This document shows, in pieces, positions 8,054 through 44,203 of a stretch of 64,000 nucleotides of DNA (its first letter is position 1; each line of letters starts with the position of its first letter). The DNA comes from Hydra vulgaris. Its lineage: Eukaryota > Cnidaria > Hydrozoa > Anthoathecata > Hydridae. Position numbers and translations under genes: made by a program. The DNA lies in NCBI RefSeq assembly GCF_038396675.1, contig NC_088930.1, positions 35,393,501 through 35,457,500 on the forward strand, read 5' to 3'. The notes beneath the pieces are model-generated. The model had not been told where the DNA came from. It saw nothing but the letters and a program-made list of their open reading frames with translations, and made no database searches.

Positions 8054-8612
8054 TTAAAATTATCAATTAGTTTCTTTTTCAACTGCATTTAATCACTGCA
8101 GTTACTTCAAAAGCATGTTTTAGACAACTTATATTTGTCACAGATTACATTCTGAAATGAACATATGTTATATGTCCAAGTATACTGCCCCACCGAGAGA
8201 CTGAGAAACGCAATTTTTCAAAGAACTTAAAACTAATTTCCCTTTGAAACCTTTCTGGTTTCATTGCAATTATATGAGCAAATATAATTTAAAGCTCACA
8301 AATAATGACGCCGCGTGATACAATGCTCTAATTGCTATCGACTAAACGACCATCATGTGGGACTCGCTTCCTGCATTTCAACAGACAACTACTCTTATTT
8401 TAAGCCAAAAGTGGGCTTGCTTACTTTTGCCGTGACAGGGCAGTGCAACAATACTCGTCAATAAATAGAAATAAGTTAATAATTTACAGCGTTCATTTAA
8501 ATAAATTACAAACAATTTACAGCATCTATTAAAATGCAAAAAAATATAAAAAGAATATAATTACATTTTACAATTTATAAAAATCTTTTTAACAAAAACG
8601 ATTAAAAAAAGT

Positions 8613-9725
8613 TTACTCTTCCATTTTGATTTCAAGTTGGAGTGGAGCCTGAACTTGACTTCGCGGGGCTTCTATTGCTAACTTAAAGTCTTTAGTATAG
8701 CGAGAACTTAATTGAGACGGATCGACATCATCTGGTAAAGAGATGTTTCTGGTAAACTGCTTGTGGTGGAAACTCAAACCGTGTTCGCCACTGTTTTCAG
8801 TTTTGGTTTCACCATGAACAATTAAATCTCTACCTTTTACTTGAATCGAAATTTCTTCTGGCTTGAAACCTTTTACATCTAAAGTGCATTTAAATGTCTC
8901 TTTTGTTGATTCTCCAGAACCAGACGTTATATGTAGCTTTTTAGGAGCTTCTATATGCAAAATACCATCTTGACTAATGTTTGAAGTAAGTGCCGTAAGA
9001 TCTACGTCATCTGGGATAGTATATTTTCGATGGAATTCACTGCAATCAAATCCATTTTCATTTTCGTTACGATGCTTTCCACTTACTTCAAGAGTTTGTC
9101 CTAAACATCGAGAAATAAAAATGAGAACAGAATAATAATGGGATGAAATACGTATTTAAGTAAATGGATGAAATACGTATTAAAGTATATATAAATAGCA
9201 AGTGCTAATTTATAAAAGCTATTTGATTTCATATTACTTTCTTTGAAAGCAGCATTTTTAACTGTTGTTTTGTAACAACAGTTAAAAATGCTGACAACAT
9301 TCTCAAGTTACGCATAACTTGACAACATTCTCAAGTTAGGTATAATCTCTCATAATCAAAATCTCTCAGTTCTTATAACAATTATTATGGTAAGAGTGAC
9401 ATAAAATAAACAAACAAATAGAAAAAAAATAACGGAAGATCCAAAATGGATTTTGATGCAATATTATAACTTTTCACACTTGTATTAAATAGTTTTAGAT
9501 TTAAATACCTTCTACTTTTAGAGTTACTTCCTCTGGCTTGTAGTGCTTTACATTAAGATTTACAACGAATCCGTTTTCCTTGTTAAAAGTCTTTTTCGTA
9601 AGAGCGCCCGCTCCAACATTAAATAATGGATAATATCTTAGGGGAGGAAAAGTAGTTTCCATTATATCTTCCAAAGATGGGTAGGAAGTAAAATGTTTAT
9701 GAACAGGAATGTGCCACAAAGACAT
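8613..9725 (-). CDS. Small heat-shock protein with two alpha-crystallin domains (left copy)
   Basis: An ATP-independent chaperone of the HSP20 family, which binds unfolding proteins in the cytosol. Exon 1 runs 9725 down to 9509 and exon 2 from 9100 to 8613 (stop TAA); the 408-bp intron has GT-AG ends and phase 1. The joined protein is 234 residues. After about 45 N-terminal residues (MSLWHIPVHK...) there are two alpha-crystallin domains: about 50-126 (NLNVKHYKPEEVTLKVEG...YTIPDDVDLTAL) and about 142-217 (DVKGFKPEEISIQVKGRD...ISLPDDVD). Usual family members have one domain. It differs from the right copy at residue 200 (Pro here, Leu there). AATAAA follows the stop on the minus strand. No convincing heat-shock element was seen upstream. 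Confidence 0.92.
9250..9293 (-). other. 20-bp perfect hairpin in the sHSP intron (left copy)
   Basis: CAGCATTTTTAACTGTTGTT at 9250-9269 pairs perfectly with 9274-9293 across a 4-nt loop. It lies wholly inside the intron of the left sHSP gene and is followed by two tandem copies of a unit containing CTTGACAACATTCTCAAG. The same hairpin is at 30973-31016 in the right copy. Confidence 0.85.
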
Positions 9726-9857
9726 TTTTTTTTTCTTCTTAATAAAAAAGTAAAGAAACTTTGAATAAAAACTTTAAAAATAAGCTTAATATAAATTTAA
9801 TAAAATAAACTTAATAAAAAAAAATAAATATTAAATACATTTGTTAAACCCTTTTGC
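9726..9857 (-). other. Upstream region of the left sHSP gene
   Basis: T/A-rich leader directly upstream of the sHSP ATG, ending in a purine run (AAGAAGAAAAAAAA before the ATG on the gene strand). It probably holds the core promoter and 5' UTR, but no TATA box or GAA/TTC heat-shock element stands out from the AT background. Confidence 0.3.
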
Positions 9858-11286
9858 ATTATAAACAAGTTATTTCAGATCTAATCGTCGCATTTGTAGA
9901 TAAAGGACGAAATGCAACAGTGCCCTCCCACTCCACGAAAAAAACCAGGCAATGATTCGCTCTACTCTCTAATCACATAAATCATATACAATTAGTGTAA
10001 AAATTTTACTTTATGAATACAATTAAAATGTTCTGGCCATTTTAATGCGTAAAAAAAAATCTTTCAAAAATAATCTTTGATTTTATATTGTTAAACAAAA
10101 CAGAAGTCTTGAACTCTAACATAACCCTAAGCGTTGCGCCTCAAAAAACATTTGGTTAACGGGGTTTCTGAAATAACTGATTCAAGTACAATAATATGTT
10201 CATTGATACTAATCTAAACAAGAACAGCAGTAGATATGTAATAAATGTAACTTAAAATCCTTGAAAAGATATTAAGTTTTGCAAAAACAACAAACAAAAG
10301 CTATGTAAAAAAAATAATAATAAAAATAATAAATAATAATTATAAACAAGTTATTTCAGATCTGATCGTCGCATTTGTAGATAAAGGACGAAATGCAACA
10401 GTGCCTTCCCACTCCACGAAAAAAACCAGGCAATGATTCGCTCTACTCTCTAATCACATAAATCATATACAATTAGTGTAAAAATTTTACTTTATGAATA
10501 CAATTAAAATGTTCTGGCCATTTTAATGCGTAAAAAAAAATCTTTCAAAAATAATCTTTGATTTTATATTGTTAAACAAAACAGAAGTCTTGAACTCTAA
10601 CATAACCCTAAGCGTTGCGCCTCAAAAAACATTTGGTTAACGGGGTTTCTGAAATAACTGATTCAAGTACAATAATATGTTCATTGATACTAATCTAAAC
10701 AAGAACAGCAGTAGATATGTAATAAATGTAACTTAAAATCCTTGAAAAGATATTAAGTTTTGCAAAAACAACAAACAAAAGCTATGTAAAAAAAATAATA
10801 ATAAAAATAATAAATAATAATTATAAACAAGTTATTTCAGATCTGATCGTCGCATTTGTAGATAAAGGACGAAATGCAACAGTGCCTTCCCACTCCACGA
10901 AAAAAACCAGGCAATGATTCGCTCTACTCTCTAATCACATAAATCATATACAATTAGTGTAAAAATTTTACTTTATGAATACAATTAAAATGTTCTGGCC
11001 ATTTTAATGCGTAAAAAAAAATCTTTCAAAAATAATCTTTGATTTTATATTGTTAAACAAAACAGAAGTCTTGAACTCTAACATAACCCTAAGCGTTGCG
11101 CCTCAAAAAACATTTGGTTAACGGGGTTTCTGAAATAACTGATTCAAGTACAATAATATGTTCATTGATACTAATCTAAACAAGAACAGCAGTAGATATG
11201 TAATAAATGTAACTTAAAATCCTTGAAAAGATATTAAGTTTTGCAAAAACAACAAACAAAAGCTATGTAAAAAAAATAATAATAAT
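9858..11286. repeat. 481-bp unit in three tandem copies
   Basis: Units start at 9861, 10342 and 10823, a constant period of 481 bp, and the third ends near 11286. They are almost identical: a visible difference is ATCTAATCG in unit 1 against ATCTGATCG in units 2 and 3. Each contains the words CGCATTTGTAGATAAAGGAC, CACTCCACGAAAAAAACC and AAGCGTTGCGCCTC. The right arm has one copy (29941-30406). The array begins about 130 bp upstream of the left sHSP start codon. Confidence 0.97.
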
Positions 11287-11988
11287 AATCACCGTGCTGC
11301 ATAATGGTTCTTACCTATTCTGTATATTTATCTCTTCTTGAACACTGTTTATCTGCTTGCATGCGTTTTATAATCATCAACGCCAAATGTTGAAATTTAT
11401 ATCTTTTTTTAAATAACGTCTTTAAGTATCCTGCTATTTTAAGAAACATCCAGAAAGATTGGCAGCATTCTGCAATTTTCTAAGAATTTCTTACTCCGTC
11501 GTTGTGCTATTTAAACGCGGGAGCCTGAGACTAGTCAAAACCTGAGTGCGGAAAAATATTCATAAGGGCTGCTTTGTTTAGAAAAATTAAATTAACTTTG
11601 GGAACTTTTTCTACATTTTATATATTACTAGATTCTTATTTATTATAAGCCATACTGTTTAACTTATAACCAATAATATAAATAGCCATATGATGTTTTT
11701 TTTTTTTTTTGTTCAATACTTAAAGGTTGCGCTCTTGCGAATTATGTTTTGAAAATCTCAAAGGACAAACATAAGGTATCGTTTACCTCAAAATAGCATC
11801 ACTTAAAATCAATATATCAATATCAGTTTTTGCAGATTGACATCTTTTGTTGGAAATTATCAAAAATAATTTACAATCAATAATAATTCTATGCTTCATT
11901 AACAAGCAGCATTTTGTAGTATATTTTAATTGTAGTGAAAATGTTTTGAATGGCTGTGTAAGAAATATTTATTCTTTACTGTTACAGA

Positions 11989-12222
11989 GGCACTCAAAAA
12001 CTGGACTTTATAATATCGGCAAAGAAATATGAAATATTGGAAATTAAAGATGGAAGTGCTCCCCCAATAATTTCTAAAAAATCTGGTTATGTCAGGGGAA
12101 CAGAGATACTAGAACCAGGTTCAAAATATGTTTTGGTGACTTACGCTAAGCAAAATTATTGTTTAAAACATTCTGCAGTTTGTTTTTTTGTTTTTTTAAA
12201 GTTCATTGTCGTATACAAGTAG
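11989..12222 (+). CDS. Unidentified open frame conserved in both arms (left)
   Basis: Not recognised. After a possible acceptor (CTGTTACAG ending at 11987) a frame is open to 12222, reading GTQKLDFIISAKKYEILEIK, then APPIISKKSGYVRG and ILEPGSKYVLVTYAKQN. The matching frame in the right arm is also open over the same part, with conservative-looking changes (DGS to DES, GTE to GTV). It points toward the centre of the palindrome, away from the sHSP gene. It may be one exon of a gene whose other exons are gone or unrecognised. The block ILEPGSKYVLV faintly recalls calpain domain III, but that is too weak to call. Confidence 0.35.
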   Translation, partial: GTQKLDFIISAKKYEILEIKDGSAPPIISKKSGYVRGTEILEPGSKYVLVTYAKQNYCLKHSAVCFFVFLKFIVVYK

Positions 12223-13182
12223 GGGCTCGGGAGGATAGATATAGCCCCCATTCCTTTCACTTTTTGTTTTTGTTGCCTTTATTTTTGTTTTTGGTACTTT
12301 TGTTTTTTTACTTTTTGTGTGGTTGTTCTAGACCCAGTGGTTTAAAAAAAACACACATAAAAGTTATGCATATACAATTTTTGAAATCCATTTCGAAATC
12401 CATTTTGATTTATTTTAATTTACAATAAAAGATGGAAACAAACATATTCTTTTAAGGTAACAATTTTTGATTTGGATTTGTTTGATCCGAGGCTCCAATA
12501 ACAGTAGCATTTTTTTAAGAACATCATTTGATACAAATATGAAGAAAAATAGCAAAGTTTGCATTTGAAATGACCTCATAGAGCAACAAAAATTACTTCA
12601 CAATAACGTAAGTGTTAGCTTATCTATCGCAATCAGTAAAAAAATGATTAATATATTTCCAAAGTTAAAAATAAGTACTATATTTCTTAAATTAAAATAA
12701 GTACTATATTTCTTAAATTAAAAAGCCCAGTGTAAAAATTACCAATACTCTATTTGTACCAATGCTTAAAAATTTGTTTTGACCATGTTACTACAAAGGT
12801 AGCCAGTTTTTTATTTTATATAAGTTTGATTCTAAGCGTGGTTTGAAAATTGTTTTAAAATAATTTCTTCCAATCTTAGAACTCTTTTCGCTAATGATTT
12901 TTCTCCAAGACATATTTTCACAAGTAAAAATGTTTCTGCATGTACCATATTTTCGCAGTCCAAGTTTTTATCTTTTTATGCTGGTTGCACAGTGATTTTC
13001 AACATTTCCGAAAGTCTGGTATTTAATTTAATAATACAAATTTATTAAGTATGGAAAAAGAAAAAAGTTGTTTCTTACTAAATATAAAATTTTTTGGTTC
13101 AAAATCAACAATGCAAATATCTTTTTTGAGTATAATATATTCTATATTAATTTGTTATTATTTAATAAGTTATGAATTTTGT

Positions 13183-13278
<96 letters not shown>

Positions 13279-14108
13279 CAATACAATATATAATACTTGT
13301 GTGGGTAGATTAGAAAAAGGTCTTGAAAAAGAGATTAGAACATATGAGGAAGGACTTTTATTAATTAGAAGAGGTGAAAATCTGTTTAAACAGGGTAATC
13401 AACTTATCCAGCAGGGTGAGCACAAATAAAAGAAGGTAAATTACTGCTTCATACTATACTGTACTGTATGCGGCAAAACCAATACAGATAATGTTGCTCG
13501 CAAAAAATTTTTAATAATCCGATTGTGACAGGGAGAATTTGAAACTTAGGTATCAGAATGATTAAGTTGTTTCGAGACTTACTAATGATACATTTTTAAA
13601 AACCAAAACCTTATCAAAATCTGTGCAAAGAATGATAGTTTATGGTAATTATTTTTTGAGGTATTTTTGGTATCTGATAGGTTCATCGTCTTAAAACCAG
13701 AAATAGAAAACCATAACTATACGAATTGTTCATGCGTTTCAAACCTTTTGTAGAAAACAAAGCATATTGAATCGGCGCAAATACTTTTAATAAGAAAAAA
13801 CAAAAAAAATTTTTTTTTTATAAATAAATATGACCTCTACACCGCCACGTATAAAAATTGATCATAAAGAAAAAAAAATTATAGGAGGGGCATAAACTAT
13901 TAAATAGCATAAGCTATTAAAAATATCTGTTAGAATAGAACGTTGAGAATATTATAAATACGATAACATAAATTAAATAGTGTTTCGAACCTTTCTATAT
14001 AAGTTAAGTTACTAAACGGATTGGTAATACCCATTCCTTTTTTTCTCATAATTTCATGTATAGTTTCTATAAAACTTTATTATTTGAAAATGTTTGTTAT
14101 GGTATGAT
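12223..14108. other. Non-coding inner part of the left arm, with a (TA)n array
   Basis: Contains a dispersed motif (GGGGCTCGGGAGGATAGATATAGCCCCCATTCC-type, near 12222) also seen at 28975-29015 and, diverged, at 19683-19722. It also holds a 25-bp tandem pair at 12663-12722 (core AAGTACTATATTTCTTAAAT) and a (TA)n array at 13188-13276. From about 13780 to 14108 it matches 25180-25530 in reverse. No gene is seen. Confidence 0.7.
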
Positions 14109-21375: not shown

Positions 21376-21503
21376 CTTTAAATATAGTCTAATATATATT
21401 GTTACGTATATTTGTAAATTTTTTATTATTTTGTTGCAGTTTTTATGCGGTTTCTCAGTTTGAAGTTTTTCAATATGCCGGCTAAAATTCCAAAGAACCG
21501 CTT

Positions 21504-21532
21504 CACAGTGGGCCAGTAGGTGGACAAAATGG
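21504..21532 (+). promoter_or_regulatory. RSS-like left end, 13-bp spacer
   Basis: Heptamer CACAGTG at 21504-21510, a 13-nt spacer, then ACAAAATGG at 21524-21532. The last matches the consensus nonamer ACAAAAACC at 6 of 9 positions, including the first six. It is presumably the transposase binding and cleavage site. Confidence 0.6.
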
Positions 21533-22404
21533 GAAAAATTTTAGTTGTCTAATCTTGAAAACCTATTTAATTTTAGTATCTACATATATTAGGAGAAATC
21601 TATTCATAATTTATTTATATTAAATCCCTTAGTTACCAGGACTCTAAGCATTTGAATATTGAGATAAAATAAAAAAGTAAAAAAGTTATAAATAAGTAAT
21701 TAACGGTGACATCAACGTTGTGTTATATTTCAATTACATCTACGTTTTTGAAACAAAAAATTAGTACATGTTATTCTAGAGTATTTAGAGATAAGAAAAA
21801 CCAATGTGTGAAATAAATTTGTCATAGCATGTTATCTCAGTTATACTTTGAAAATCACAGATTAAAAAAAAAAATTTCTTAAGAAACTTATTTTTTGCCG
21901 CACAATAACTAATAATTACCACAATTTGCCATGTGTTGTCTTATATTTATTTGAGCTATATGATGCTTCAATCGAGTTTTAATTGATTGCTCGTCCCCTT
22001 AAATCCCCGTTCAGATTTTATGTATGTTTTAACTTGGTTGCTATGGTACTAAATTTTGCATAGCAACAACTCATTTTTACATTAACGTTGTTTTAACAGT
22101 ATTTTACTTGCGCTAAATACACAATATTGGGGGTATGTATTAAAATGAGATTCAGAATTCTTATGAGGTTAACTTTTTTTGGTTACTATGGATACCTTAC
22201 TTTGCATAACATAGCAACAACATATTTTCGGTAGTTGTTAGTAATTTAATTACTAACACTGACAGTAATTTAATTACTTTTAATTTTAATTACTAACACT
22301 TGTAGTAACTTAATTACTAACAAGTATTAGTAGTCCAGGCGGCATATATATTATAACATTTTACTTTTAAATACAAAATACTTGTTACAATAATTATTTA
22401 GATA

Positions 22405-24228
22405 TCTTAGTATTTCAAAACAAAATATTACTGAAGATATATTAAAATTTATTCAGCCAAAATTTGCTGATTTTAAAGACGTTGATTTTAGACATGCTGT
22501 TCAACGATTTGTTTACTTGTATAAAAAAAAGTGGAAATCTGCAAACTATACTGTGAAAAATTTTGAAAAGAAGTTTGTGAACTGGCTTAATGAATATTTA
22601 ATTGTCAGAAAAAAAGACAATAAACCAACTGCAAGTAGACGTGGTCGAAAACCAGTTGCATTTGATAATAGTTCTAATAAAACTAAAAAACGGCGTGTAT
22701 CTTGTTTAATTGAATCTCATTCATCCAATGAATTATTTTTTGCTGCTAATAAAAAATTTAGAGATGAATCTGTTGTTATTGCTGCCAAGAATGTTTTAAA
22801 TATATCAAATACAGATAAAGCAACTAAATATTCAGCAGACGAAGCACTGGCTTTAATAATTGATGCAAGTCTGACAAAAGCTTCCTATCAATTGATTAGA
22901 AGCGGAGCCTTGGAGAAAGAATATAACATCTACCCCGCTTACAATGATGTCAGAGATGCAAAATTGAAATGTTATCCTGCAAACATAACAGTGGAGGACT
23001 ATTCAGCTTCAGTTCCTTTAAAAGATTTAATGACTCATACTTTGCAAAGAATCTGTGCAGTTCAGGAACCTGTGCTAAGGCACTTGATATTAAACGACAA
23101 AGCAATAAAAACAATGACACTAACGTGTAAGGCTGGTTTTGATGGTGCTACTGGCCAAAGCATTTATAAACAAGTTTTATCAGAACCCGACATTAACAGA
23201 GATTTAAAGCGTGAAGAATCATTATTTATTACTTGTCTTGTCCCATTGGATTTGACTGGATTTAACAACAGCAACGAAAAGGTGCCTATTTGGAGAAATC
23301 AAAAGTCGTCCTCCACAGCCTATTGTAGACCCATAAGATTTGCATACAAAATGGAATCCAAGGAATCTGTGATTGAAGAAAATCAGTACATTAAAAGTGA
23401 GATAGAAAGCTTGGGTATGATTTTATTAGAGGTTTGCGGATCTTCTATTGAAGTGAATTGTATTATTGAACTTACAATGATTGATGGGAAGGTTCAAACA
23501 ATATTATCTGAAAAAAATAACTCATACCAATGCTGTTCAGTGTGTGGTGTCTCTCCAAAAAATATGAATAGTCTTGATATCCTTAATATAGATTATACTG
23601 TGATATCCTTAATATAGATTATACTGTAGCTAAACAAAAGATTCAGACTGATTTTATGAACAAAATGGGACTTGTTGTTGATTTCCCTAAAAGTGGTGGT
23701 TCTGGAACAAGTAATGATGGCAATACCTCAAGGCGTGCTTTTGCAGCATATGAACAAACAGCTGAAATTCTGGGTATTGACCAAAACCTTATATTCAGAT
23801 TTTACATTATCTTGGTAACGCTCTCTTCAGGATATGAAATAGACTGCTTAAAGTTCAAGGATTATTGTTTTGACACTTTTAGACTATATGTGTCCCTTTA
23901 TCCATGGTATTACATGGCTCAATCAGTTCACAAAATATTGATACATGGACATGACATAATTAAAAGCCTTACATTACCCATCGGACTTATGTCAGAGGAA
24001 GCTCAAGAGGCTAGAAATAAAGACTTTAAATCTTATCGCGAAAATTTCAGCCGAAAAACATCCAGAAAAGCAACAAATACTGATCTTATCAATAGACTCC
24101 TAGTTTCCAGTGATCCTGTTATTTCATCATTGCGTAAATCAACATCACACCAAACAAATCATAAAGCATTTCCTTCAGATGTTTTACAATTACTTAAACA
24201 ATCTTCAAACGATATTATTGTTTTATAA
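22405..24228 (+). pseudogene. RAG1/Transib-like transposase with internal deletion
   Basis: The family cuts DNA at CACAGTG ends by a DDE mechanism with hairpin formation; RAG1 descends from it. The frame is open from about 22405 without an upstream ATG (an earlier exon is likely) to 23617, then continues in another frame, 23656-24228. Counting from 22517, the first catalytic Asp motif AGFDGATGQ is at about residue 209 (RAG1 CDGMGDV). CRPIRF then a zinc-binding C-x2-C (CSVCG) follow as in RAG1. The second part has HKILIH (RAG1 HKTLAH, H-x4-H) and SEEAQEARNK with the catalytic Glu (RAG1 SEGNESGNK). The stretch that in RAG1 lies between the C-x2-C and KKMNLKP, carrying the second catalytic Asp, is missing; a 26-bp tandem duplication and a frameshift mark the scar at 23580-23630. 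Confidence 0.85.
23580..23632 (+). repeat. 26-bp tandem duplication at the deletion scar
   Basis: GATATCCTTAATATAGATTA followed by TACTGT occurs twice in a row inside the RAG1-like reading frame. It introduces a stop in the first frame exactly where the segment with the second catalytic Asp is expected. Confidence 0.95.
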
Positions 24229-24670
24229 TTTTTTGATGTAATTTAAAATTGATAACGTTTTCTTGCACTATTTTTTGCTTTTGTTATTCCTAAAACATTA
24301 TTTACCTAAATACTCAATTTTTATTCAATATAGGTGGGTCAAAAATCCGATAAGATATTCAAATATCAATTTACCACTTTGTAACTAAGGAAAGTATCCG
24401 GTAACTAAGCAATATAAGTATCCATAACAACTAAATTTAAAAAATTATCACTTTTGTAAGAAGTGTGATCTCATATTGGTACTCATGCCAAATTTAGTGA
24501 ATATAGCACTTATAAAATACCTGCAGATAACAAAAGTAGGTTGTTGCTAAGCAAAATAAAGGTATCCATAGCAACGAAATAAAAAAATATTACCTTCATA
24601 AAAAGCGCAGACATCATATTAGTACTCATACTAATTTTAGTGAATATAGCTCTAATATTAAATTAGTTAT

Positions 24671-24708
24671 GAATTTTGTCCAGTAAAAGTGCATTCTGGC
24701 CCACTGTG
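24671..24708 (-). promoter_or_regulatory. RSS-like right end, 22-bp spacer
   Basis: Read inward on the minus strand: heptamer CACAGTG at 24708-24702, a 22-nt spacer, then ACAAAATTC at 24679-24671, matching the nonamer consensus at 7 of 9. The spacer is nine bases longer than at the left end. Confidence 0.6.
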
Positions 24709-24713
24709 CGCTT

Positions 24714-25649
24714 GAGCGTTTTATTTGAAATTTTCAACAAATTTTTCTTATCATAAGAGCTGTGTTTTAAATGAAACAAAATTTTGAAATACAACAGTAT
24801 GACCAATTTAATTTTTCAAAAAATGCACTTTTTTCTATTGTCAACTTTAGAGCACGAGTCTTCAGACCCAGAACTTAGAAAAAAAAGAAGTCGGTTTCGT
24901 TTTAAACACACATACATCTATTCTTAATGTGTTTTCAAAGTTTTATTTTGCCTTTTTTATTAGTTTTTGCTATGACTGGGCCAGCGCAAATCTTATTTTC
25001 TGCTTATTTTGGGTGTGTTTTGCGGTTACTGCAGCAGTCTTTAAGCTTCTCAAAAGCAAGCTTCGCTCACCGCTTTTTACTTATTTATTAACTTTCTTTA
25101 AACTTTTCTCTTCAAGTTTTCTTTACTTACTCGCTTTAACTTTCCACATCACGTTTGCATTTGAAAATATTTTATTTAAAGGCCATATTTTACCATAAAA
25201 AATATTTTTAAATTAAAAAGTTTTATAGAAAACATACGTGAAATAACGTGAAAAAAAGGAATCGGTACTAGCAATCCGTTAAATAACCTAACTTACATGG
25301 AAACGTTCCAAATACTATTCAATTAATGTTATCGTATTTATAATATTCTCAACGTTACATTCTAATAAATGTTTTTAATAGCTTATGCTACTTAATAGCT
25401 TACGCCCCTCCCATAACTTTTTTTTAACGACCGATTTTTATGCGGAGTGGCTAATGAGAGAGGTAGAGATCACATTTATATGTAAGGTTGTTTTTTTTAA
25501 CTTTTTTTTTGTTAGAAGTATTTGCGCCGATTGCTTGAAATTACGTTTTTCGACCAAATTTAGACAAGCATTGGCGCAAAAAGATTCTAATGTCGAATTT
25601 ATTTAATTCTTTCAACGACATTTTTTTTCTGTGTTCTTGTAAGAAAAAA
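24714..25649. other. Flank of the Transib-like element and inner right arm
   Basis: 24714-24960 probably continues the Kolobok copy 1 flank. From about 25080 the sequence is the reverse complement of left-arm pieces (25180-25530 against 13780-14108, and about 25080-25200 against 19560-19660). Open frames here are hydrophobic low-complexity products of T-rich DNA; I do not call them genes. Confidence 0.5.
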
Positions 25650-25784
25650 ACATTGGGCTTTTTAATTTAAGAAATATATTACTTATTTTTTGATTTAGGA
25701 AATATAGCACTTATTTTTAATTTAAGAAATATAGTACATAGTTTCTTCATATTTGTATCAAATGATGTTCTTAAAAAAAAGCTA

Positions 25785-28716
25785 GGGGAGAGTGAGGCAC
25801 CATGACACATGGGGCACCATGAAACAAAGTAGTTATACAGCGATATAAAAGTATAGTGAAAAAATCCTATTGATTTGTAATCGGTTTCTACTAGATGTAT
25901 TGTTCAACGTATAATTCAAATCAGAATATGTCAATAATATCGAAAGAAGTTCAAATTAGTGTTTTTTCCGTTGCAAAGTAATATTAAATTTTTTGGAGTT
26001 GTTGCGTTTTACGATGTTATAATTCACTGTATTCTTCTGAAACTGCTTATATTTTGTTAGCTATATTTCATGAGCTCTTCAGTGTGACAAAGAAATTTAA
26101 TAAAATAATTTTTTGAAAAACAAAAACCAGTCATCTTATTCTATCAGAATGTATGGCGTACCATGAAACAGTGTTAGTGGGAAACCATGAAACTAAACAA
26201 ATGTACCGTTTTGTAAATTACTCTATAGTCAAGCATACTAAAATTAATTGCCGGCGGGAAATATTGACTTCTATACTTTAATGTTTCACCTAACTTGGTA
26301 AAAAAAATTGGTGAACCATTAAATCAAGTTTATGTAGTAAAAATAAATGTTATGTTATTCAGTATTTATGCATGTAGTATGATGATGTACTTATATTGTA
26401 ATAAAATTAATTTTGTCACATAAACAGTTACACAAGTTTATATAAACATAAGTTTGCTTTATTATACTTATATCAAGGTATTTATGAACACTTTTTTGAT
26501 GAGGATTAACATTAATTTATTTTATGTTTTTATACTGGTTTCTGTTAATATATAAAATTTATAGATGTAAATTAAAGCTTAGCGTGGTATGAAATTATGA
26601 TATGACCATGAAATGAATTTTTAAACAATGTAAAGCCTCTTTGTTATTGAAATAGTATTAAAGGAACCTTCTCGAGTAGTTTAATGAAGGTAGCTGTTGA
26701 TTTAGTTCTAACAGGAGGGTGTTCATTTAACAATAAACAGAAGGGTGTTCATCAAATGCTGCAGAAAAATTTGATCTTAATCACAGCACCTTTTGCTGGT
26801 AATTTATGCTCGTTTATTCTGCACCAATAAGTATTTGTCCTACTTAGTAAATGAAATTTGTATAATTTTGTGACTAAAAGCAAATTCTAAATGTGTGTTT
26901 TAATGTATACAGATATGTTAAAAAGAAAAAAGGAATAAAAGAAGGACAATTCATTACTATGAAATGCAATTTTTTTACAAGAAGAGCATTTACTAAAGAG
27001 CAAGAAAATCTTTTGAAGCAGTAAATTGTCACCTGCGCTCAAATGTATTATGGATACATGTTGTAAATTTAAGATCTATAAGCAACATATACTTAATTAT
27101 ACACCATTTGGATCTCTTGGTCTTGCAAATCTAACTGGATGGATGAATACAGAGTTATTTGTAGAAGTAGTTCAACATTTTATATAAAAAAATTCTCGTT
27201 AAAGAAAAATCTCAACTTATATTTGATAATTACGAGAGCCACTTATCTAAAAATGCTCTTGATCTTGCTAAATGTAACAGTGTTACTAATCTTACTATAC
27301 TACCACATAGAAGTCACAAAGTTGAGCCCCTAGATGTTTCTGTATTTGCTCCATTTAAAGTTTATTATAATGAAACAGTAAAACCTTGGCTTCTAAATTA
27401 TCCTGGAGTGTCACTGTGAGTGTTCTAAATCATCCATGGAGAATCACTATTTACAAAATTGCATCTTGTGTTAGTATAGCATATGAAAAAAGTTTTACTA
27501 TCACAAAAATTCAAAATGGATTTAGGAAAACTGGAATATTTCCTTTTGACAAGAATGTATATTCAGAAGCAAATTTTTTATGTGTTGTTACTGATAGAAA
27601 CAATCCAAATATATATCAAACAAACACTGGAAAAACTCTGATCACCAACAACTTGTTACTCTCACCAGATAAACTTTAGAAGACTTTTGTCAGTTCCGAG
27701 TCAAGTACAAGTCAAGCCAATGACTCTGAAAATATTAACTTTTTTAAGCCCTTCTCAATTTAAAGAATTTCTGAAGGCCGCTAAGAGAAAAAAGAAAAGA
27801 AAACCTCGTGAGAAAGCTAGAAGTATAACAGCAACAGATGAACCAACAATGTAATGAAGTAAAGAAAAGAAAAGGAAAATAAAGAAACAAGTATTTCATC
27901 AGAAAAATAAAAATAAAAATTTTGTTTCCGAAAGTGATTTATTAAGTGATGATCATAATTCTTATTCTTAATTTTAAAAATTTATGAGTTTTTAGGAAAC
28001 ATTGCTTCTTTTTTTTTATATAATTTTTTGGATTGTTTTCCTACCTTTTATAACTTTTTTGTTATCCTGTTTCATGGTGCCCCATAGACTGTATCAAGGT
28101 ACCCCAAGGGTGGAGTACCTTGATACAAAATTCAACTTTTTCTCAATAAGTTTTTACTCTTCGACCTCTTTTATTTTGGTAATTTAAGAATTTAATTTTG
28201 AAGTTATGTTTATCTACAAATTGCACTAATCGCTAAAAATTTAAGTGTTTAACTAGTAAATCAAAAAAAAAAATCTTTTTTCAAATCCATGCTTTATGCA
28301 AGCAGAATCCTATTGGGCCTAGAAATTCTTTTAAAGCATGGAAAAAACAATAGGTTTTGAATCGCTGCGCTTTAATGTCTTCGAAACTGCAAATAATTTG
28401 CAAATCAATGATTTTTGTGACGTAATACGCAATTCATATCAAATAAATAAAATGTATGGGGAAATACAAATTAAATTTTTATTAACTTAATTAACTTTTT
28501 TTGGTCAAATTTTTCCATTTCCTTGTATTGTCATCGAAAATGATTAAGTGTGCAAAATTTGAGCAAAATTGGTTGAGAAAAAAGCTTTCAAAAATTGATT
28601 TCAAATTTTGTGACACACAAACATATATATATATAGAAAAGAACCTTATATAAAGCATAGAAAAAATTAGTTACAAAGCAAAAATCAAAAGTGTATCATG
28701 GTGTCCCACTCTTCCC
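25785..28716. mobile_element. pogo-type Tc1/mariner element in the right arm
   Basis: The left end is GGGGAGAGTGAGGCACCATG; the right end, reverse-complemented, is GGGAAGAGTGGGACACCATG. Both are flanked by TA. Direct support for the boundaries comes from the left arm: at 12500-12515 it reads CCAATAACAGTAGCATTTTT with no insertion, and removing 25785-28716 plus one TA gives the matching CCAATAAATGTAGC. Confidence 0.9.
27080..27990 (+). pseudogene. pogo/Jerky-type transposase remnant
   Basis: Pieces in several frames: LANLTGWMNTELFVEVVQHF at about 27124, then ESHLSKNALDLAKCNS and LPHRSHKVEPLDVSVFAPFK (the pogo block around the later catalytic Asp residues), then from about 27386 HPWRITIYKIASCVSIAYEK and IQNGFRKTGIFPFDKN, the family's C-terminal GF.xTGI.P motif. 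A Lys-rich, heavily stopped tail runs to about 27860. No N-terminal DNA-binding part is recognisable. Dead copy. Confidence 0.8.
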
Positions 28717-29084
28717 TACATTTATTGGAGCCTCGGATCAAACAAATCCAAATCAAAAATTGTTACCTTAAAAGAATATGTTTGTTTCCATCTTTTATTG
28801 TAAATTAAAATAAATCAAAATGGATTTCAAAATGGATTTCAAAAATTGTATATACATAACTTTTATGTGTGTTTTTTTTTAAACCACTGGGTCTAGAACA
28901 ACCACACAAAAAACAAAAAGTAAAAAAACAAAAGTACCAAAACAAAAATAAAGGCAACAAAAACAAAAAGTGAAAGGAATGGGGGCTATATCTATCCTCC
29001 CGAGCCCCTACTTGTATACGACAATGAACTTTAAAAAAAAGAAACAAACAAACAGCAGAATGTTTTAAATAATAATTTTACTTA

Positions 29085-29242
29085 GCGTAAGTCACCAAAA
29101 CATATTTTGAACCTGGTTCTAGTATCACTGTTCCCCTGACATAACCAGATTTTTTAGAAATTATTGGGGGAGCACTTTCATCTTTAATTTCCAATATTTC
29201 ATATTTCTTTGCCGATATTATAAAGTCCAGTTTTTGAGTGCC
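29085..29242 (-). CDS. Unidentified open frame conserved in both arms (right)
   Basis: Mirror of 11989-12222. It is open over the shared part and reads GTQKLDFIISAKKYEILEIK, then DESAPP, ISKKSGYVRGTV, ILEPGSKYVLVTYAK. Two residues differ from the left copy. Same acceptor-like CAG upstream. The tail after the K-rich end differs by indels. Function unknown. Confidence 0.35.
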
Positions 29243-29940
29243 TCTGTAACAGTAAAGAATAAATATTTCTTACACAGCCATTCAAAACATTTTCACTACA
29301 ATTAAAATTTACTACAAAATGCTGCTTGTTAATGAAGGATAAAATTAATATTGATTGTAAATTATTTTTGATAATTTCCAACAAAAGATGTCAATCTGCA
29401 AAAACTGATATTGATATATTGATTTTAAGTGACGCTATTTTGAGGTAAACGATACCTTATGTTTGTCCTTTGAGATTTTCAAAACATAATTCAGAAGAGC
29501 GCAACCTTTAAGTATTAAAAAAAAACAAAAAAAAACATCATTTGGCTATTTATATTATTGGCTATAAGTTAAACAGTATGGCTTATAATAAATAAGAATC
29601 TAGTAATATATAAAACGTAGAAATAGTTTCCCAAAGTTAATTTAACTTTTCTAAACAAAGCAGCCCTTATGAATATTTTTCCGCACTCAGGTTTTGACTA
29701 GTCTCAGCCTCCCGCGTTTAAATAGCACAACGACGGAGTGAGAAATTCTTAGAAAATTGCAGAATGCTGCCAATCTTTCTGGATGTTTCTTAAAATAGCA
29801 GGATACTTATAGACGTTATTTAAAAAAAGATATAAATTTCAACATTTGGCGTTGATGATTATAAAACGAAAGCAAGCAGATAAACAGTGTTCAAGAAGAG
29901 ATAAATATACAGAATAGGTAAGAACCATTATGCAGCACGG

Positions 29941-30406
29941 TGATTATTATTATTTTTTTTACATAGCTTTTGTTTGTTGTTTTTGCAAAACTTAATATCT
30001 TTTCAAGGATTTTAAGTTACATTTATTACATATCTACTGCTGTTCTTGTTTAGATTAGTATCAATGAACATATTATTGTACTTGAATCAGTTATTTCAGA
30101 AACCCCGTTAACCAAATGTTTTTTGAGGCGCAACGCTTAGGGTTATGTTAGAGTTCAAGACTTCTGTTTTGTTTAACAATCTAAAATCAAAGATTATTTT
30201 TTAAAGATTTTTTTTTACGCATTAAAATGGCCAGAACATTTTAATTGTATTCATAAAGTAAAATTTTTACACTAATTGTATATGATTTATGTGATTAGAG
30301 AGTAGAGCGAATCATTGCCTGGTTTTTTTCGTGGAGTGGGAGGGCACTGTTGCATTTCGTCCTTTATCTACAAATGCGACGATCAGATCTGAAATAACTT
30401 GTTTAT
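29941..30406. repeat. Single copy of the 481-bp unit
   Basis: Reverse complement of one unit of the left-arm array, in the equivalent position upstream of the right sHSP gene. It has ATCTGATCG, like left units 2 and 3, and the outer flanks on both sides are shared with the left arm, so the arms differ by exactly two units. Confidence 0.95.
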
Positions 30407-30540
30407 AATGCAAAAGGGTTTAACAAATGTATTTAATATTTTTTTTTTTTTATTAAGTTTATTTTATTAAATTTATATTAAGCTTATTTTTAAAGTTTTT
30501 ATTCAAAGTTTCTTTACTTTTTTATTAAGAAGAAAAAAAA

Positions 30541-31653
30541 ATGTCTTTGTGGCACATTCCTGTTCATAAACATTTTACTTCCTACCCATCTTTGGAAGAT
30601 ATAATGGAAACTACTTTTCCTCCCCTAAGATATTATCCATTATTTAATGTTGGAGCGGGCGCTCTTACGAAAAAGACTTTTAACAAGGAAAACGGATTCG
30701 TTGTAAATCTTAATGTAAAGCACTACAAGCCAGAGGAAGTAACTCTAAAAGTAGAAGGTATTTAAATCTAAAACTATTTAATACAAATGTGAAAAGTTAT
30801 AATGTTGCATCAAAATCCATTTTGGATCTTCCGTTATTTATTTGCTATTTGTTTGTTTATTTTATGTTACTCTTACCATAATAATTGTTATAAGAACTGA
30901 GAGATTATGATTATGAGAGATTATACCTAACTTGAGAATGTTGTCAAGTTATGCGTAACTTGAGAATGTTGTCAGCATTTTTAACTGTTGTTACAAAACA
31001 ACAGTTAAAAATGCTGCTTTCAAAGAAAGTAATATGAAATCAAATAGCTTTTATAAATTAGCACTTGCTATTTATATATACTTAAATACGTATTTCATCC
31101 ATTTACTTAAATACGTATTTCATCCCATTATTGTTCTGTTCTCATTTTTATTTCTCGATGTTTAGGACAAACTCTTGAAGTAAGTGGAAAGCATCGTAAC
31201 GAAAATGAAAATGGATTTGATTGCAGTGAATTCCATCGAAAATATACTATCCCAGATGACGTAGATCTTACGGCTCTTACTTCAAACATTAGTCAAGATG
31301 GTATTTTGCATATAGAAGCTCCTAAAAAGCTACATATAACGTCTGGTTCTGGAGAATCAACAAAAGAGACATTTAAATGCACTTTAGATGTAAAAGGTTT
31401 CAAGCCAGAAGAAATTTCGATTCAAGTAAAAGGTAGAGATTTAATTGTTCATGGTGAAACTAAAACTGAAAACAGTGGCGAACACGGTTTGAGTTTCCAC
31501 CACAAGCAGTTTACCAGAAACATCTCTTTACCAGATGATGTCGATCTGTCTCAATTAAGTTCTCGCTATACTAAAGACTTTAAGTTAGCAATAGAAGCCC
31601 CGCGAAGTCAAGTTCAGGCTCCACTCCAACTTGAAATCAAAATGGAAGAATAA
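30541..31653 (+). CDS. Small heat-shock protein with two alpha-crystallin domains (right copy)
   Basis: The mirror of the gene at 8613-9725. Exon 1 is 30541-30757, exon 2 is 31166-31653; intron 408 bp, phase 1, donor GTATTTAAAT, acceptor GATGTTTAG. Product 234 residues with domains at about 50-126 and 142-217 and a C-terminus ending EIKMEE, without the usual I-x-I/V tail. Residue 200 is Leu (Pro in the other copy); otherwise the proteins look identical. AATAAA lies at 31769-31774. Both copies keep intact frames and splice sites, so both may be expressed. Only one 481-bp unit lies upstream here, against three upstream of the left copy. Confidence 0.93.
30973..31016 (+). other. 20-bp perfect hairpin in the sHSP intron (right copy)
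   Basis: Identical in stem sequence to the left-copy hairpin at 9250-9293; the loop here reads ACAA, its complement. Located mid-intron. Confidence 0.85.
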
Positions 31654-32304
31654 ACTTTTTTCAATCGTTTTTGTTAAAAAGATTTTTATAAATTGTAAAA
31701 TGTAATTATATTCTTTTTATATTTTTTTGCATTTTAATAGATGCTGTAAATTGTTTGTAATTTATTTAAATAAACGCTGTAAATTATTAACTTATTTCTA
31801 TTTATTGACGAGTATTGTTGCACTGCCCTGTCACGGCAAAAGTAAGCAAGCCCACTTTTGGCTTAAAATAAGAGTAGTTGTCTGTTGAAATGCAGGAAGC
31901 GAGTCCCACATGATATAATATAAATATATATACATATAAATAGTTTGGTTTTACTCTGCATAGTTTCTACGTATAACCAATAGCAACAGAAATCATGTTC
32001 CAGCACTAATAGCAAAAAATAAGGCTAAAAAGAAAATGTCGTTTAGTCGAAATTTTTTGAAAAATTGCGTTTCTCGGTCTCTCGGTGGGGCAGTATACTT
32101 GGACATATAACTTATGCTCTTATGTTCTTACATATATCGTTTTCTAAAACATGCTCTATATTTAATTAATAGAATGTATGCGAAATTATTGACTAAAACA
32201 TACAGAATGTATTAATGGTCGAGTTAGATCTGAATAACGAAATCTCACGTTTTAATACCGCGTAGATTTAGTAAACTTGTTAAAAGCGTAGGTTTTAATT
32301 AGTT

Positions 32305-35949: not shown

Positions 35950-38900
35950 GAGTCATTTTTTGTAAGAATCAGGCAGTCAATGGAAGTGACCTCCTCCAAA
36001 TTGCTTGAATTTTTTATATATTGATCAGAATATAGAAAAAACCTGTTGGGGAAAAAAAAAATTTTCAAAAATGTTTCGTTCACTCGGAATCTGGGCTTAA
36101 ATTTTTGAGATTTTTTAAAAAATTTTTAGAAATTTAGTTTTTGCCACCTTTGAACCCATTTTTTTGGCAAGGCAAAAAGTTGCACATTGCTTTTGTAGTT
36201 AATATCAGACGTAACCCAAAAGCTCTCTCCAAAAAATATAAAAAAGTTGCGTGACACTGTGCGGTTGGCTAATTATCATAGTTCAAAAGTACAAAATCAA
36301 TCACTTTTGTCAATTCTTAATCGGAGTTAATTCTAGCGGCGAAGTGTTGCACACAATTTTTCTTTTAGGATTTGAAATTATCAAAGGTATTGAGTCTAAA
36401 AATGCAAAGAAAGTTATGTGATACCTAAGGCCTATTAATATATTAAGGCTTGAAATTGGAAAAAAATGTTTTAGTATACTTACAAAATGAACCATTACGG
36501 CAGAGGCGCTTAGTTTTGTAAAAATGTAAACATATCCAACTGTCAATACAAAAAGGTCCTAACATAATAATAAAAAAAATTCGTGTGATCTTTAGATATT
36601 AAGTTAAAAATAAAGGTACAAATTGTTAAAAATGATTAAGTACGAAGAGATATTTTTTTGGACACACAGATGAGGTTTTCGCTCACAATAAAATTTCTAT
36701 CATCCAAAATTAGCATTTAGCATTACACAAAACATTGCACGTAATGTTAAGAAAAAATTTAAGCGTCTCTGACTATGATATAGAAATCATAACAATTGAA
36801 ATAAATAATAATAAAAAACAATACATGATCAGAAGTGAATTATTTAAATTTACGTCATAACCAAATAACTTGTGGTGATCGAATGGAAGAAGAATCGCTG
36901 ATATCACGATTGTGGAGAAACAAGTTAGTGGGCGGTTGTTTACTTTACCATAAAAATTTCTTAACTTTATTTTAACGATCTTTAAAGTTTGCATAAATAG
37001 AGTAGATATTTTATCATTGCTATTGAGAAATAGGTACTGCATAAATAGAACTTGTTTTTAGTTGAGTATGAAACAAAACAAATATTTTTATGAAAACTGT
37101 TGTTGCTTTTCAAAAGGAAATTGTGGATCATTCAAAAAACATAAAATTATAAACAAAATGTTTTACATTCATCAGCTGGGAGATGTTGATGTTAAGAAAC
37201 ACCTCATCAACTTAAAGGTAATTATGTATTTTAAATTTACGCAGACTGTAATATAATTTTTATAATTACATACTTTATAACTTCTCTGCAATAAGATTTT
37301 GAGACAAAGTTCTTTAAACAAAAAAAATAGCTCTTTTAATTAATTCCTCACTCTTTTAATAAATAATCACTAAATTAATCACACTCTTGCAATATTGTAT
37401 TTTAATAATAACAACAATGTATTTCAAACTTGTAAACATTTTTCGTGAAGAGTCAGATTATAAACAATGCTTTAAATGACACACTTAATAATTGTTTAAA
37501 AAATTGTTTTTAGGTCATGCGATTAAACGATAATAATATTTGGGAAGAAAATGGACTTATTGCAAATAGACTTAAAAGAAATCTTGAAAAGGATGAACAA
37601 ATATGTGCTTTTCACCGGTACACGTTTGGTATTGCATGGAGTCCTCCAAAAACATGCTTTCATCTTCACCATCTAAATATAAAAGGAAAAAAATCTCCCG
37701 CTTTAAGGGCGTCACCAATGCATGTCGTCATATCAATGTCAAAGCGATACAATGAAGTATTTTCAGTTCGTGCAATGCTGTGTTTTACCCATTTAAAGCA
37801 AGAAACTGCTTTATCTAGAGTCAACGAAAACACCAATTTATGTACAGAAACACAAACACAACAAGAACAAACATATATGACACCTGCTACTCCAGATGAA
37901 GAATTTGATCCCGGTGAAATTAATGTTTCACAGGAGATTTTGGACGAATCTCTAAGAAGCCGTGAGAGTGTAACTGAGGTTCTTAATGCAAGTCCAATAA
38001 AATTTAGATTAAAAAGGAAGTTCGAATATCTGGAAGATACTACTAAAGATAAGTTAAAACGCAAGTATGTTCGCCTAGAAAACTTATTAAAGAAAAAATT
38101 TGCGGAAGCTGTTGCTCCTGGACAAGAGGAAATACTTATAGATTTTCTTAACAGTAAAAATGTTGATGAAATAAATAGCCCTCTCCCAATTGAAATTATT
38201 CGTGCTCAGAAAGTATATAAGCAAAGTGATTCCATGAGAAAGTTAGTTATCCTCTCATTATTAGACCATACCAAGTATACCAAAAAGTTTATAATGAACA
38301 CATTTGAGTGTACCAAACATCGTATAGAAACAGCAAGAAAATGGCATGCATCTCATAAAGGGTTGGCATTTCCAGAGAAGAAAGTATTCGTCCGATCTAG
38401 TCTTGATCAAACAAAGTGTGAACATTTCTTAGACTTTATATTTACAAGCGGTATTTTGCATGATGTTGCTTATGGAATAACCAAATTAAAATACGACAGC
38501 GGTGAAGAACAAAAGATAGTGCATGCAATACTGACGACAAAATATAGCCACGCTATCATGTTCTATCGAAAAAGTTGTAGTGAAAACAATTATATACCAT
38601 TATCTGATTCAAGTTTGTGGAAAGTCTTGCATGCAATAAAACCTTCAAGTCAAAAAAGCTTAGCTGGATTAGATGATGTTACTGCTTCAGGCATGAATGG
38701 TTTTCAAGCATTACAAAAATTGGCACAAAGATTTAGTTCTAAATCTCTCGAAGCTGCCCTTGAAAAAGGAAAAAGGTATTTGAAAACAAGTTATCAAACC
38801 AATTGTAGTGTCAATGACTCAAACATTTCTTCTCATAGCTCAAAACATGCCTTATCAGATCCATCTGAAAAAAATCTTCAATCCAACACAGAGATATCAG

Positions 38901-41900
38901 AAGTGGTATGTGCCGATTGCTATGATTTGTGCAAAGCTATCGAGATGATCAAAGAACTAACAATTCAAAATTCTGACGATGCTGATTCTATTTATGATTT
39001 GGAAATTGCTGTAAAGGATGTATTCAACTACATAAAACACCTGATGAGAGATTCTCAACAGAAAAAGGCAAAAATCGAAGCTTTTAAGCAATTAAACGAT
39101 GAAACTGCTTTCTGGCTTAAAGATTTTTGTCAAAAAATTCTTCCGGTTCGATACAGAGAGGGCCAAAGAGAGTATTTTGGCAAGAAAGGAATGAGTTTAC
39201 ATGTGGATATGTTCTTCATAAAAATAGCAGGAAAGTTATTCAAACGTGTTTACTTTACTTCAATGTATAGGTGTGATCAGGGAATAGGTGATGTTGTTTC
39301 GTTAGCCACTGCAGTTTTAGACCAATACAGAATTGATCAACCGCATATCAAGAAAATGTTTACCAAATCTGATAATGCCGGCTGCTATCAGGGAAATCTT
39401 TCAGCTGAAGCAATCTACAATGTATGCAAAGAGAGAGATATAAAGTTGCTGAGATATGATTATAATGAACCCTGTTGTGGAAAAGATCAATGTGACAGGG
39501 AGAGTGCAGTTGTAAAGACAATTTTAAGGAGTTACGTTGACTCTGGTAATAATCTTTTGACTGCTGAAGATATACACAAGGCTATGCATTATAGTTTTGG
39601 CGCTAAAGATGCAAAAGTAGCAGTTGCTCAAATTAGCAATGATAAAACTGTAGTTACTGGACCAAAGATTAAGAACATTAGCAACTATCACTCATTTGAG
39701 TTTGGTGAGAAAAGTATGAAGATGTGGCGTTATTTCAATATCGGTGAGGGAATTGAACAAGAGTATGGAAATCTTAAAATTCAACCCTCGATTAAGTTGT
39801 TGTTGCCATATAGCAAAACAGATAATTCAATTAAGCGTAACAAGTCACTTAAGGAAAAACAGAAAAGAAGTGACAGGCAATTATAATCATTAAGATTTTG
39901 CACTGAAATGAATTGTACTTTATCATTTGAAAGCGATGCTGAGTTAGAAGAACACATGCTATCCGGTCTTCATACAGTTCCGAAATCATTAACATCATTG
40001 GATAAAGTTCGCAACTCGTTTGTTCATAAGATGAAAATTACTTCACAACTAAATATGCCAATTTCTTCATCCTCTAACAGTGCTTCCGTAAAAGACAAAC
40101 CACATTGCATGAACATTTTTCTATTGCAAGGTTGGGCATTACCAGTTCGAAGTTCTTTTAGATTTTCAAATCAGCAGAAAGAACTGTTGTATAAATACTT
40201 TATTCGTGGAGAAGAATCAGGTAATAAAATGAGCCCTGAGCAGGTTCACATGCAGCTGAGGAGAGAACTTCCGCCTGATCAATATGTAACTAGCCAACAG
40301 ATAAGATCTTTATTTTCAAGGTAGGCATTGTTGCTATCAAAACTTTTGCAAATTAGATTATGTTTCTGACTGTTAAATAGTTCTTTTACAAATATGAAAT
40401 TAAAATTTAGGTGAAAGTTATAATTTTGTGTGTTTGTTTACATATGTTTAAAAATATGTACAATTGATATTGTTATAGATTTAGTAACCTGAAAAGAAAA
40501 GGTAAGCTGGTAGAACCGACAACAGAAAATAATGAAAATAGTCAGGTTAACGATAACAAAGAAGTTTATGGCGAAAATGATGACTTTAATCTGGCAGGAG
40601 ACAATGAAGATGATAATAAATATGAGGAAGACATCGCCAATCTTGCAAAAGAAATTTGTCTTGTATGGAAAGTGAATGATTGGGTTGCTGTTGCATATGA
40701 AAAACAATGGAATATTGGATATATTGTGGAGGTAATATTATTCAAAGTATATATTAGTTTCAAGTTTTTATTTTGTTTTACAAGACAGTGCTCTAAAATA
40801 AAAGGAATATAAATAAAATGTAAAAATAATTTCAGAATGACATTATATAAGACTTTACAAGTTTTATTGAATGTAAGCAAAATTAAACAAATCATAAACT
40901 CTTTATTATATTATTTTAAATGTTGCGCTAATACTTTTAGGTATCTATAACTGGGATCAGAGTTAATTGTATGATTAACGGGCAAGAGAAGAATACTTTT
41001 CGCTGGCCAGTTACTACCGAGGAGATAAATAACCAAACTGATAAAATTATCTGTTTAGTAAATGCTCCTTTTCTAATCAGTGGTTGTGGCGATTATTCAT
41101 TATCCGAAGAAGACTATAATACAGTCATATCATTATTCTTAGAGAAACTTACTGCAGCAGAGTAGAAATTATGTGTGATGTGGTGGAAAATGTGTGTAAA
41201 TGACTCTAATAATAAATGAAAAACTAATTTTTAAATGGAAAAACATTTAAATGTTTGATTTATGTTTTATTTAATTAGCAATATAGTTATCTTGATGTTA
41301 GATTTTTGTTCAGTTTTTAATTCATGTTATATCATGCGTGTGACAAAATTACACGAATTTTTTTTATTATTATGTTAGGACCTTTTTGTATTGACAGTTG
41401 GAAATGTTTACATTTTTACAAAACTAAGCGCCTCTGCCGTAATGGTTCATTTTGTAAGTATACTAAAACATTTTTTTCCAATTTCAAGCCTTAATATATT
41501 AATAGGCCTTAGGTATCACATAACTTTCTTTGCATTTTTAGACTCAATACCTAAATTTGATAATTTCATATCCTAAAAAAAAAATTGTGTGCAACACTTC
41601 GCCGCTAGAATTAACTCCGAATAAAAGTTGACAAAACTGATTGATTTTGTACTTTTAAACTATGATAATTAGCCAACCGCACAGTGTCACGCAACTTTTT
41701 TATATTTTTTGGAGAGAGCTTTTGGGTTACGTCTGATATTAACTATAAAAGCTATGTGCAACTTTTTGCCTTGCCAAAAAAATGGGTTCAAAGGTGGCAA
41801 AAACTAAATTTCTAAAAAATTTTAAAAAAATCTTAAAAATTTAAGCCCAGATTCCGAGTGAACGAAACATTTTTGAAATTTTTTTTTTTCCCTAACAGGT

Positions 41901-44160: not shown

Positions 44161-44203
44161 TTCAACTAGTTGTAAGCTCTATAGAGCTTACAACTAGTTG
44201 AAA
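44160..44203. repeat. 44-bp perfect palindrome at an element junction
   Basis: TTTCAACTAGTTGTAAGCTC followed by TA and its exact reverse complement arm; centred at 44181.5 with no loop. Homology to the dispersed repeat ends at its left edge and homology to the Kolobok-type element begins at about 44199, inside its right edge. Confidence 0.95.

Follow-up and report, generated by a model that had tools for sequence, protein, structure and literature searches.

A locus of the Hydra vulgaris genome raises the question of how V(D)J recombination acquired its 12/23 spacing rule. The window (the whole stretch of 64,000 nt that was analysed) contains, at positions 21504–24708, an element of 3,205 bp that an earlier note, made from the sequence alone, had described as a complete Transib/RAG1-like transposon. 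We asked what this element is, how its ends are built and what bearing they have on that rule. Our results indicate that it is very probably a defective copy, 3,205 bp long, of a cut-and-paste Transib transposon of ca. 3,360 bp, designated family A, which has spread recently in Hydra.

The element in the window and its copies in the genome

The earlier note had placed CACAGTG ends and a 5-bp CGCTT duplication at the borders of the element, and both were found there, the ends being identical 13-bp inverted repeats (Table 1). With two mismatches permitted, CACAGTGGGCCAG matched the 64-kb window only at the two element ends, against 0.14 matches expected, and two or more matches occurred in 2 of 100 shuffles of the window. 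X-box-like motifs, GTTGCTATGG and CCATAGCAAC, lie in subterminal repeats (window 22023–22230 and 24411–24660) in an inverted arrangement flanking the gene; GTTGCTATGG was counted seven times in one family A element and 20 times in the 64-kb window, its own copy included.

Table 1. Features of the family A copy, in window coordinates.
Feature	Position	Strand	Remarks
Left target-site duplication, CGCTT	21499..21503	.	Flank read; 25/26 two-ended family copies with perfect 5-bp duplication
5′ terminal inverted repeat, CACAGTGGGCCAG	21504..21516	+	Heptamer CACAGTG at 21504-21510
Second shared block, TGGACAAAAT, 5′ end	21521..21530	+	Element positions 18-27
Nonamer-like, ACAAAATGG, 5′ end	21524-21532	+	13 bp past heptamer
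First transposase frame piece, stop to stop	22394..23617	+	NBD-like GRKP stretch, DDBD, two Asp stretches (GFDG, TMIDG), CxxC
Scar of ca. 46-bp deletion	22404..22405	.	Relative to other copies; start codon region gone
NBD-like GRKP stretch	22643-22654	+	Inside first frame piece
26-nt tandem duplication	23575..23626	.	At site of ca. 133-bp deletion; frame broken
Second transposase piece	23587..24228	+	HKILIH stretch, SEEAQEARNK Glu region, through stop codon
Nonamer-like, ACAAAATTC, 3′ end	24671-24679	-	22 bp past heptamer
Second shared block, TGGACAAAAT, 3′ end	24673..24682	-	Positions 27-36 counted from 3′ end
3′ terminal inverted repeat, CACAGTGGGCCAG	24696..24708	-	Heptamer at 24702-24708
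Right target-site duplication, CGCTT	24709..24713	.	Flank read

A search of the genome (911.5 Mb, 15 contigs) gave 5,874 first-look candidates, and all of the 102 that were scored matched. Family A has thus at least 102 copies, window copy included, with 98–100 % protein identity; this is a lower bound, because only the best end of the ranking was scored. It contrasts with the statement that autonomous Transibs typically have a single copy or a few at most (PMC4411706). The 30 best-scoring loci, the window copy among them, were examined in detail, a choice that biases the sample to intact copies. Both ends were present in 26 of the 30, one end being missing from the stretch examined in the remaining four, and 25 of these 26 were flanked by perfect 5-bp duplications; the exception has CACTG on one side and CATTG on the other. 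The 25 duplications are mostly of different sequence, although 23 begin with C and 19 end with G. The boundaries of the element are thus real; no copy with divergent boundaries was seen.

A stop-to-stop frame of 670 residues (659 aa from the first Met) was found in 12 of the 30 best copies, and one of 671 residues in one more. Pairwise DNA divergence among the 26 two-ended copies averages 1.15 % (range 0.68–2.03 %), which reads as a recent burst of the family. The 10 intact frames compared differ by 25 synonymous and 59 nonsynonymous changes, and their dN/dS-like ratio of only 0.61 does not strongly show purifying selection.

The window copy cannot produce an intact transposase. Its deletions, as defined against four family A copies (L002, L008, L011 and L026), removed the start region and, together with the 26-bp duplication, broke the frame, so that the copy is dead. 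The supposed single coding region 22405–24228 is in fact two frames, split by this duplication and deletion, and the earlier description of the element as complete with both ends applies to its ends and not to its gene. The FDG, CxxC, HKILIH and SEEAQEARNK stretches do occur in the order announced, within regions that align with HzTransib and, in the profile comparison, also with RAG1L and RAG1. The GFDG, TMIDG and SEEAQEARNK stretches retained across the two pieces would belong to a putative nick-and-flank-hairpin catalysis. Besides the two transposase pieces, no frame of 80 aa or more was found inside the window copy.

The surroundings of the element are rich in repeats. A large inverted duplication occupies window positions 8352–14104 and 25191–31914, with arm pieces 86–99 % complementary and near-identical HSP20-type frames in both arms (8613–9155, minus strand; 31111–31653, plus strand); the Transib sits in the spacer between the arms, with ca. 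480 bp between it and the inner end of the right one. The left arm contains three direct copies (9858–11119, at intervals of 481 bp, with 99 % identity over 300 nt), all of which pair with a single stretch of the right arm. Long inverted repeats at 35981–36592 and 41345–41960 (405- and 208-nt pieces, 96–99 %) surround long frames at 37514–40324 that matched no Pfam family in the part tested; this unit, 35981–41960, is perhaps another transposon. Mutator-like transposase pieces (PF20700) and a DDE_Tnp_1_7 transposase (PF13843), of piggyBac type, are situated at 44198–45181 and 54942–56402.

Homology of the transposase

In a phmmer search of the PDB, the first and second pieces of the window copy matched entry 6pqn with E-values of 1.3e-32 and 1.3e-52, respectively; we take this entry, whose record reads DNA-mediated transposase, to be HzTransib. 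A profile of seven sequences from the Hydra genome matched HzTransib with 1.3e-163, amphioxus RAG1L with 1.3e-8 and vertebrate RAG1 with 6.2e-5 at best, and there were no other kinds of protein among the 14 PDB sequences found at E ≤ 10. The proposed membership in the Transib/RAG1 lineage is thereby supported, with no match to another DDE superfamily in this search. The profile aligns to residues 7–481 of the chain of HzTransib (Helicoverpa zea; 6pqn and relatives), nearly the whole of what was solved, and the window piece has ca. 140 extra residues ahead of the first aligned one (query 143 = chain 5). Pfam gave one weak, unrelated match under the cut-off for each of the two window pieces, and when the second piece (201 aa) was used to scan viral contigs, the pattern matches lay in 20 stretches, with no relative among them.

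A GR-bearing, KRR-rich stretch precedes the DDBD, reading GRK in family A and GRP in families B and C (see below). It sits where RAG1 has its NBD, and the solved HzTransib chain aligns only just after it. When family A2 (5/6 sequences) was compared with the RAG1 NBD using hhalign, GRP was in register with a probability of 1.8 %, and 2 of 200 shuffles scored as high; for NBD and DDBD together, 18 of 200 did. The PDB profile search with A2 found HzTransib and not RAG1, and the N-terminal 160 residues gave no match to RAG1. By sequence, homology of the GRKP stretch to the RAG1 NBD is weak and no more than suggestive; an equivalent, GRP-bearing NBD has already been asserted for Transibs (PMC9435367).

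Two-part ends and spacer lengths

Both ends of family A are in two parts, the 13-bp repeat CACAGTGGGCCAG and a shared block, TGGACAAAAT, situated at positions 18–27 of the left end and 27–36 of the right end. The layout is thus 13 + 4 + 10 bp at the 5′ end and 13 + 13 + 10 bp at the 3′ end; with the nonamer-like part taken to start at ACAAAA, it is separated from the heptamer by spacers of 13 and 22 bp, respectively. This asymmetric arrangement goes beyond what the earlier note had claimed. A shared block of the length of TGGACAAAAT occurred in 100 of 20,000 pairs of 37-mers drawn at random from the window. The match to the RSS nonamer consensus, ACAAAAACC, is 6/9 at the 5′ end and 7/9 at the 3′ end, at spacers 13 and 22, and a fraction of 0.00095 of 20,000 draws of random window pairs scored as well against it at 12 ± 1 and 23 ± 1.

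Other Transib families were sought in the genome with a stretch of HzTransib, which gave 151 matches (150 scored of 4,266 candidates), of which 30 loci, L031–L060, were fetched. They form six clusters at 85 % identity, and their identity to family A in the core is 30–39 %. Five of the loci have convincing paired ends, namely L033, L041, L056 and L058, with 5/5 flank bases equal, and L055, with 4/5; none were found in the other 25 within the stretch fetched. In families B (L041) and C (L055, L056 and L058), TGGCCAAAA is at position 27 of both ends, so these ends are symmetric (22/22), whereas family D (L033) is symmetric with 24/24 and has a weaker second block. All three of these symmetric families carry target duplications, with the one imperfect base at L055. 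Since B and C are ca. 34–39 % identical to A in the core and have the second block at the same position as the long end of A, the block holds its place across deep protein divergence, and it is the 5′ end of family A that departs.

Unequal ends were also found outside family A. Family A3 (L065 and L067; 55–72 % identical to A, depending on the segment) has a short 5′ spacer (13 bp) and a long 3′ one (24 bp), with perfect 5-bp duplications in both copies. In family F (L061 and L066), ca. 30 % identical to A or less, the polarity is reversed with respect to A, the 5′ spacer being the long one (22 bp) and the 3′ spacer the short one (13 bp); the duplication is perfect in L061, and L066 has unlike flanks, catag and ctgtt. 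The C-terminal piece of family F matches HzTransib with 2.6e-14, amphioxus RAG1L with 7.8e-6 and RAG1 with 5.4e-5 at best. L061 carries CKLCSEIGHSKKTC, that is, the Cx2Cx3GHx4C motif known from the RAG1L tail (PMC7204232), in which Arg replaces Gly in L066. Family F is a second, deeply different Transib/RAG1L-like family of the Hydra genome; the best of its further copies are 93–97 % identical, one with a stop-free frame of 627 aa. L062, L063 and L064 have short ends for which the ca. 4.7 kb fetched contained no convincing partner.

The spacing was also examined by pattern counts over the genome, which are counts of sites and not of independent events, because most sites come from few young families. 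CACAGTG-N10-TGGMCAAAA, with a 13-bp spacer, occurs at 813 sites (one for the reversed-pattern control), and the N2–32 pattern, covering spacers of 5–35 bp, at 2,428 (control, 10). By comparison, the eight spacers of 14–21 bp together (N11–18) account for 74 sites (control, one), many of which resemble main ends altered by indels. For the other 1,541 sites (N2–9 or N19–32), the genome-wide count is a joint one over all these lengths. Among the first 100 sites listed, all on one contig (C1), 39 have a total length of 26, 46 of 35, six of 36, six of 37, two of 25 and one of 23, with none of 27–34, which indicates that the spacer is mostly 13 or 22–24 bp. End spacings are therefore bimodal, in symmetric and asymmetric families alike. 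The ends among these 100 sites form 30 adjacent convergent pairs, of which 27 are short/long, two long/long and one short/short; the 27 comprise 22 of family A and five of A2, two families with alike ends. The short/short pair is 316 bp long, with a 13-bp spacer on both sides (contig C1, 26877590–26877905).

Comparison with known systems shows both likeness and difference. The heptamer of family A is identical to the RSS consensus, CACAGTG (PMC8289069), and its spacers differ by 9 bp, not by 11 as in the vertebrate 12/23 RSS; those of A3 differ by 11. Also unlike the vertebrate system, the frames of the window copy include no RAG2 alongside the transposase; a Pfam scan for RAG2 gave no matches in the genome, yet likewise none in 14 of 14 control genomes, and is thus uninformative. 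Transib ends resemble the RSS heptamer and their duplications are 5 bp long (PMC7204232), but the ends of HzTransib are described as symmetric, with little or no similarity to the nonamer (PMC8289069), in contrast to the 13/22 of family A. According to PMC8355894, 12/23-like ends with a heptamer and a nonamer-like block, at spacers of 12 or 23 ± 1 bp, occur in insect Transibs (Transib5 of D. melanogaster; Transib2 and N1–N3 of An. gambiae); compared by description, they differ from family A in their hosts, and in Hydra symmetric families exist in the same genome. The RAGL transposon AanRAGL of the alga Aureococcus anophagefferens is reported to have 13-bp and 10-bp elements with 4 or 13 bp between them (PMC9435367), the very layout of family A, although it encodes RAG1L and RAG2L and its block sequences differ. 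This agreement is our own comparison and could be a coincidence.

Transibs have been divided into Subgroup I, with all ends asymmetric and the CTT1 tail, and Subgroup II, with ends of both kinds, a CTT2 tail and loss of the α11–α12 region, and two Hydra elements were named (PMC9435367). CMC-Transib is one of 14 putatively active TE families enriched in H. vulgaris strain AEP, although not placed in the top fifth by expression (PMC12220107). Asymmetric Transib ends, Hydra Transibs and putative activity of Hydra CMC-Transib are therefore already in print, and family A belongs to a known kind of element, of which it is a well-resolved example. It shares superfamily and host with HvuTransib-7_HMp, HvuTransib-9_HMp and CMC-Transib, and may be identical with one of these entries. 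In the running text searched in the literature on Transib ends, no description of a 13/22 layout in Hydra was found.

Alternative readings and the meaning of the spacing

That the element is an artefact, with an inverted repeat that happens by chance to enclose an unrelated gene, has a negligible probability: no point in its favour was found, and it is refuted by 25 loci that share these boundaries and have perfect 5-bp duplications, most of which differ in sequence. Family A could instead be a RAG1L (RAGL) transposon, a direct relative of the RAG1–RAG2 pair, that lost RAG2L. Its DDE core is indeed related to RAG1L and RAG1, its heptamer is that of the RSS, and ProtoRAG and AanRAGL are also reported to have asymmetric two-part ends (PMC8289069, PMC9435367). 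Nevertheless, family A is much closer to HzTransib (1.3e-163) than to RAG1L (1.3e-8), the Cx2Cx3GHx4C tail (CTT1 or CTT*, of Subgroup I or RAG1L) is absent from the C terminus of family A although present in L061 of family F, and the window copy has one gene only, not a convergent RAG1L–RAG2L pair. On the frames, the profile E-values and the missing tail we reject this origin, which we consider very improbable. The element has instead what characterizes a Transib: a homologous DDE transposase, terminal inverted repeats starting with an RSS-like heptamer, a 5-bp, GC-leaning target-site duplication (25 of 26 two-ended copies) and, inside the window copy, a single transposase gene without RAG2L.

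Accepting family A as a Transib, the difference of 9 bp between its spacers might still be an accident of drift, with a second block that has no function. In line with this, the symmetric families B, C and D exist with target duplications, as does one short/short pair of 316 bp; furthermore, the family A copies are too young for constraint to show, and most matching sites, coming from few young families, are not independent. We nevertheless regard drift as unlikely, because the position of the block is kept in families only ca. 34–39 % identical to A in the core, the spacings are bimodal (813 sites at 13 bp against 74 at 14–21 bp, of 2,428 at 5–35 bp), and family F, so distant from A, also has 13 and 22 bp, with reversed polarity.

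A functional spacing could operate as follows. Intact family A copies encode one DDE transposase of 659 aa, whose N-terminal GRKP/KKRR stretch occupies the position of the NBD in RAG1, and a dimer of it most likely holds each end at two sites, the CACAGTG heptamer and the TGGACAAAA block. The cut would be made beside CAC and the flank hairpinned as by HzTransib and RAG, and the ends would then be joined 5 bp apart into a CANTG-like target. The dimer probably needs the second block on a workable face of the DNA, or at a workable distance, which would give rise to the two spacing classes, and unequal spacing may favour the pairing of unlike ends. We infer the cutting chemistry by homology from HzTransib and RAG, and likewise which domain reads which block and the role of unequal spacing in end pairing.

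As a tentative reading, the heptamer and a nonamer-like block at ca. 13 or ca. 22–24 bp may form an old end code of Transib and RAG1L elements, a rule read by the transposase on its own, with no need of RAG2. In Hydra, this code would extend over families with proteins 30–39 % identical and over both polarities, and includes a layout like that of the algal RAG1L–RAG2L element (13 + 4/13 + 10). If this is true, V(D)J recombination would have put an older spacing rule to late use in its 12/23 logic. The single genome of this laboratory animal contains young, partly intact asymmetric families (13/22, 13/24 and, in F, 22/13) together with symmetric ones (22/22 and 24/24), which have the heptamer and a similar second block in common, and would therefore permit direct tests, with natural sequences, of a RAG2-free preference for unequal ends.
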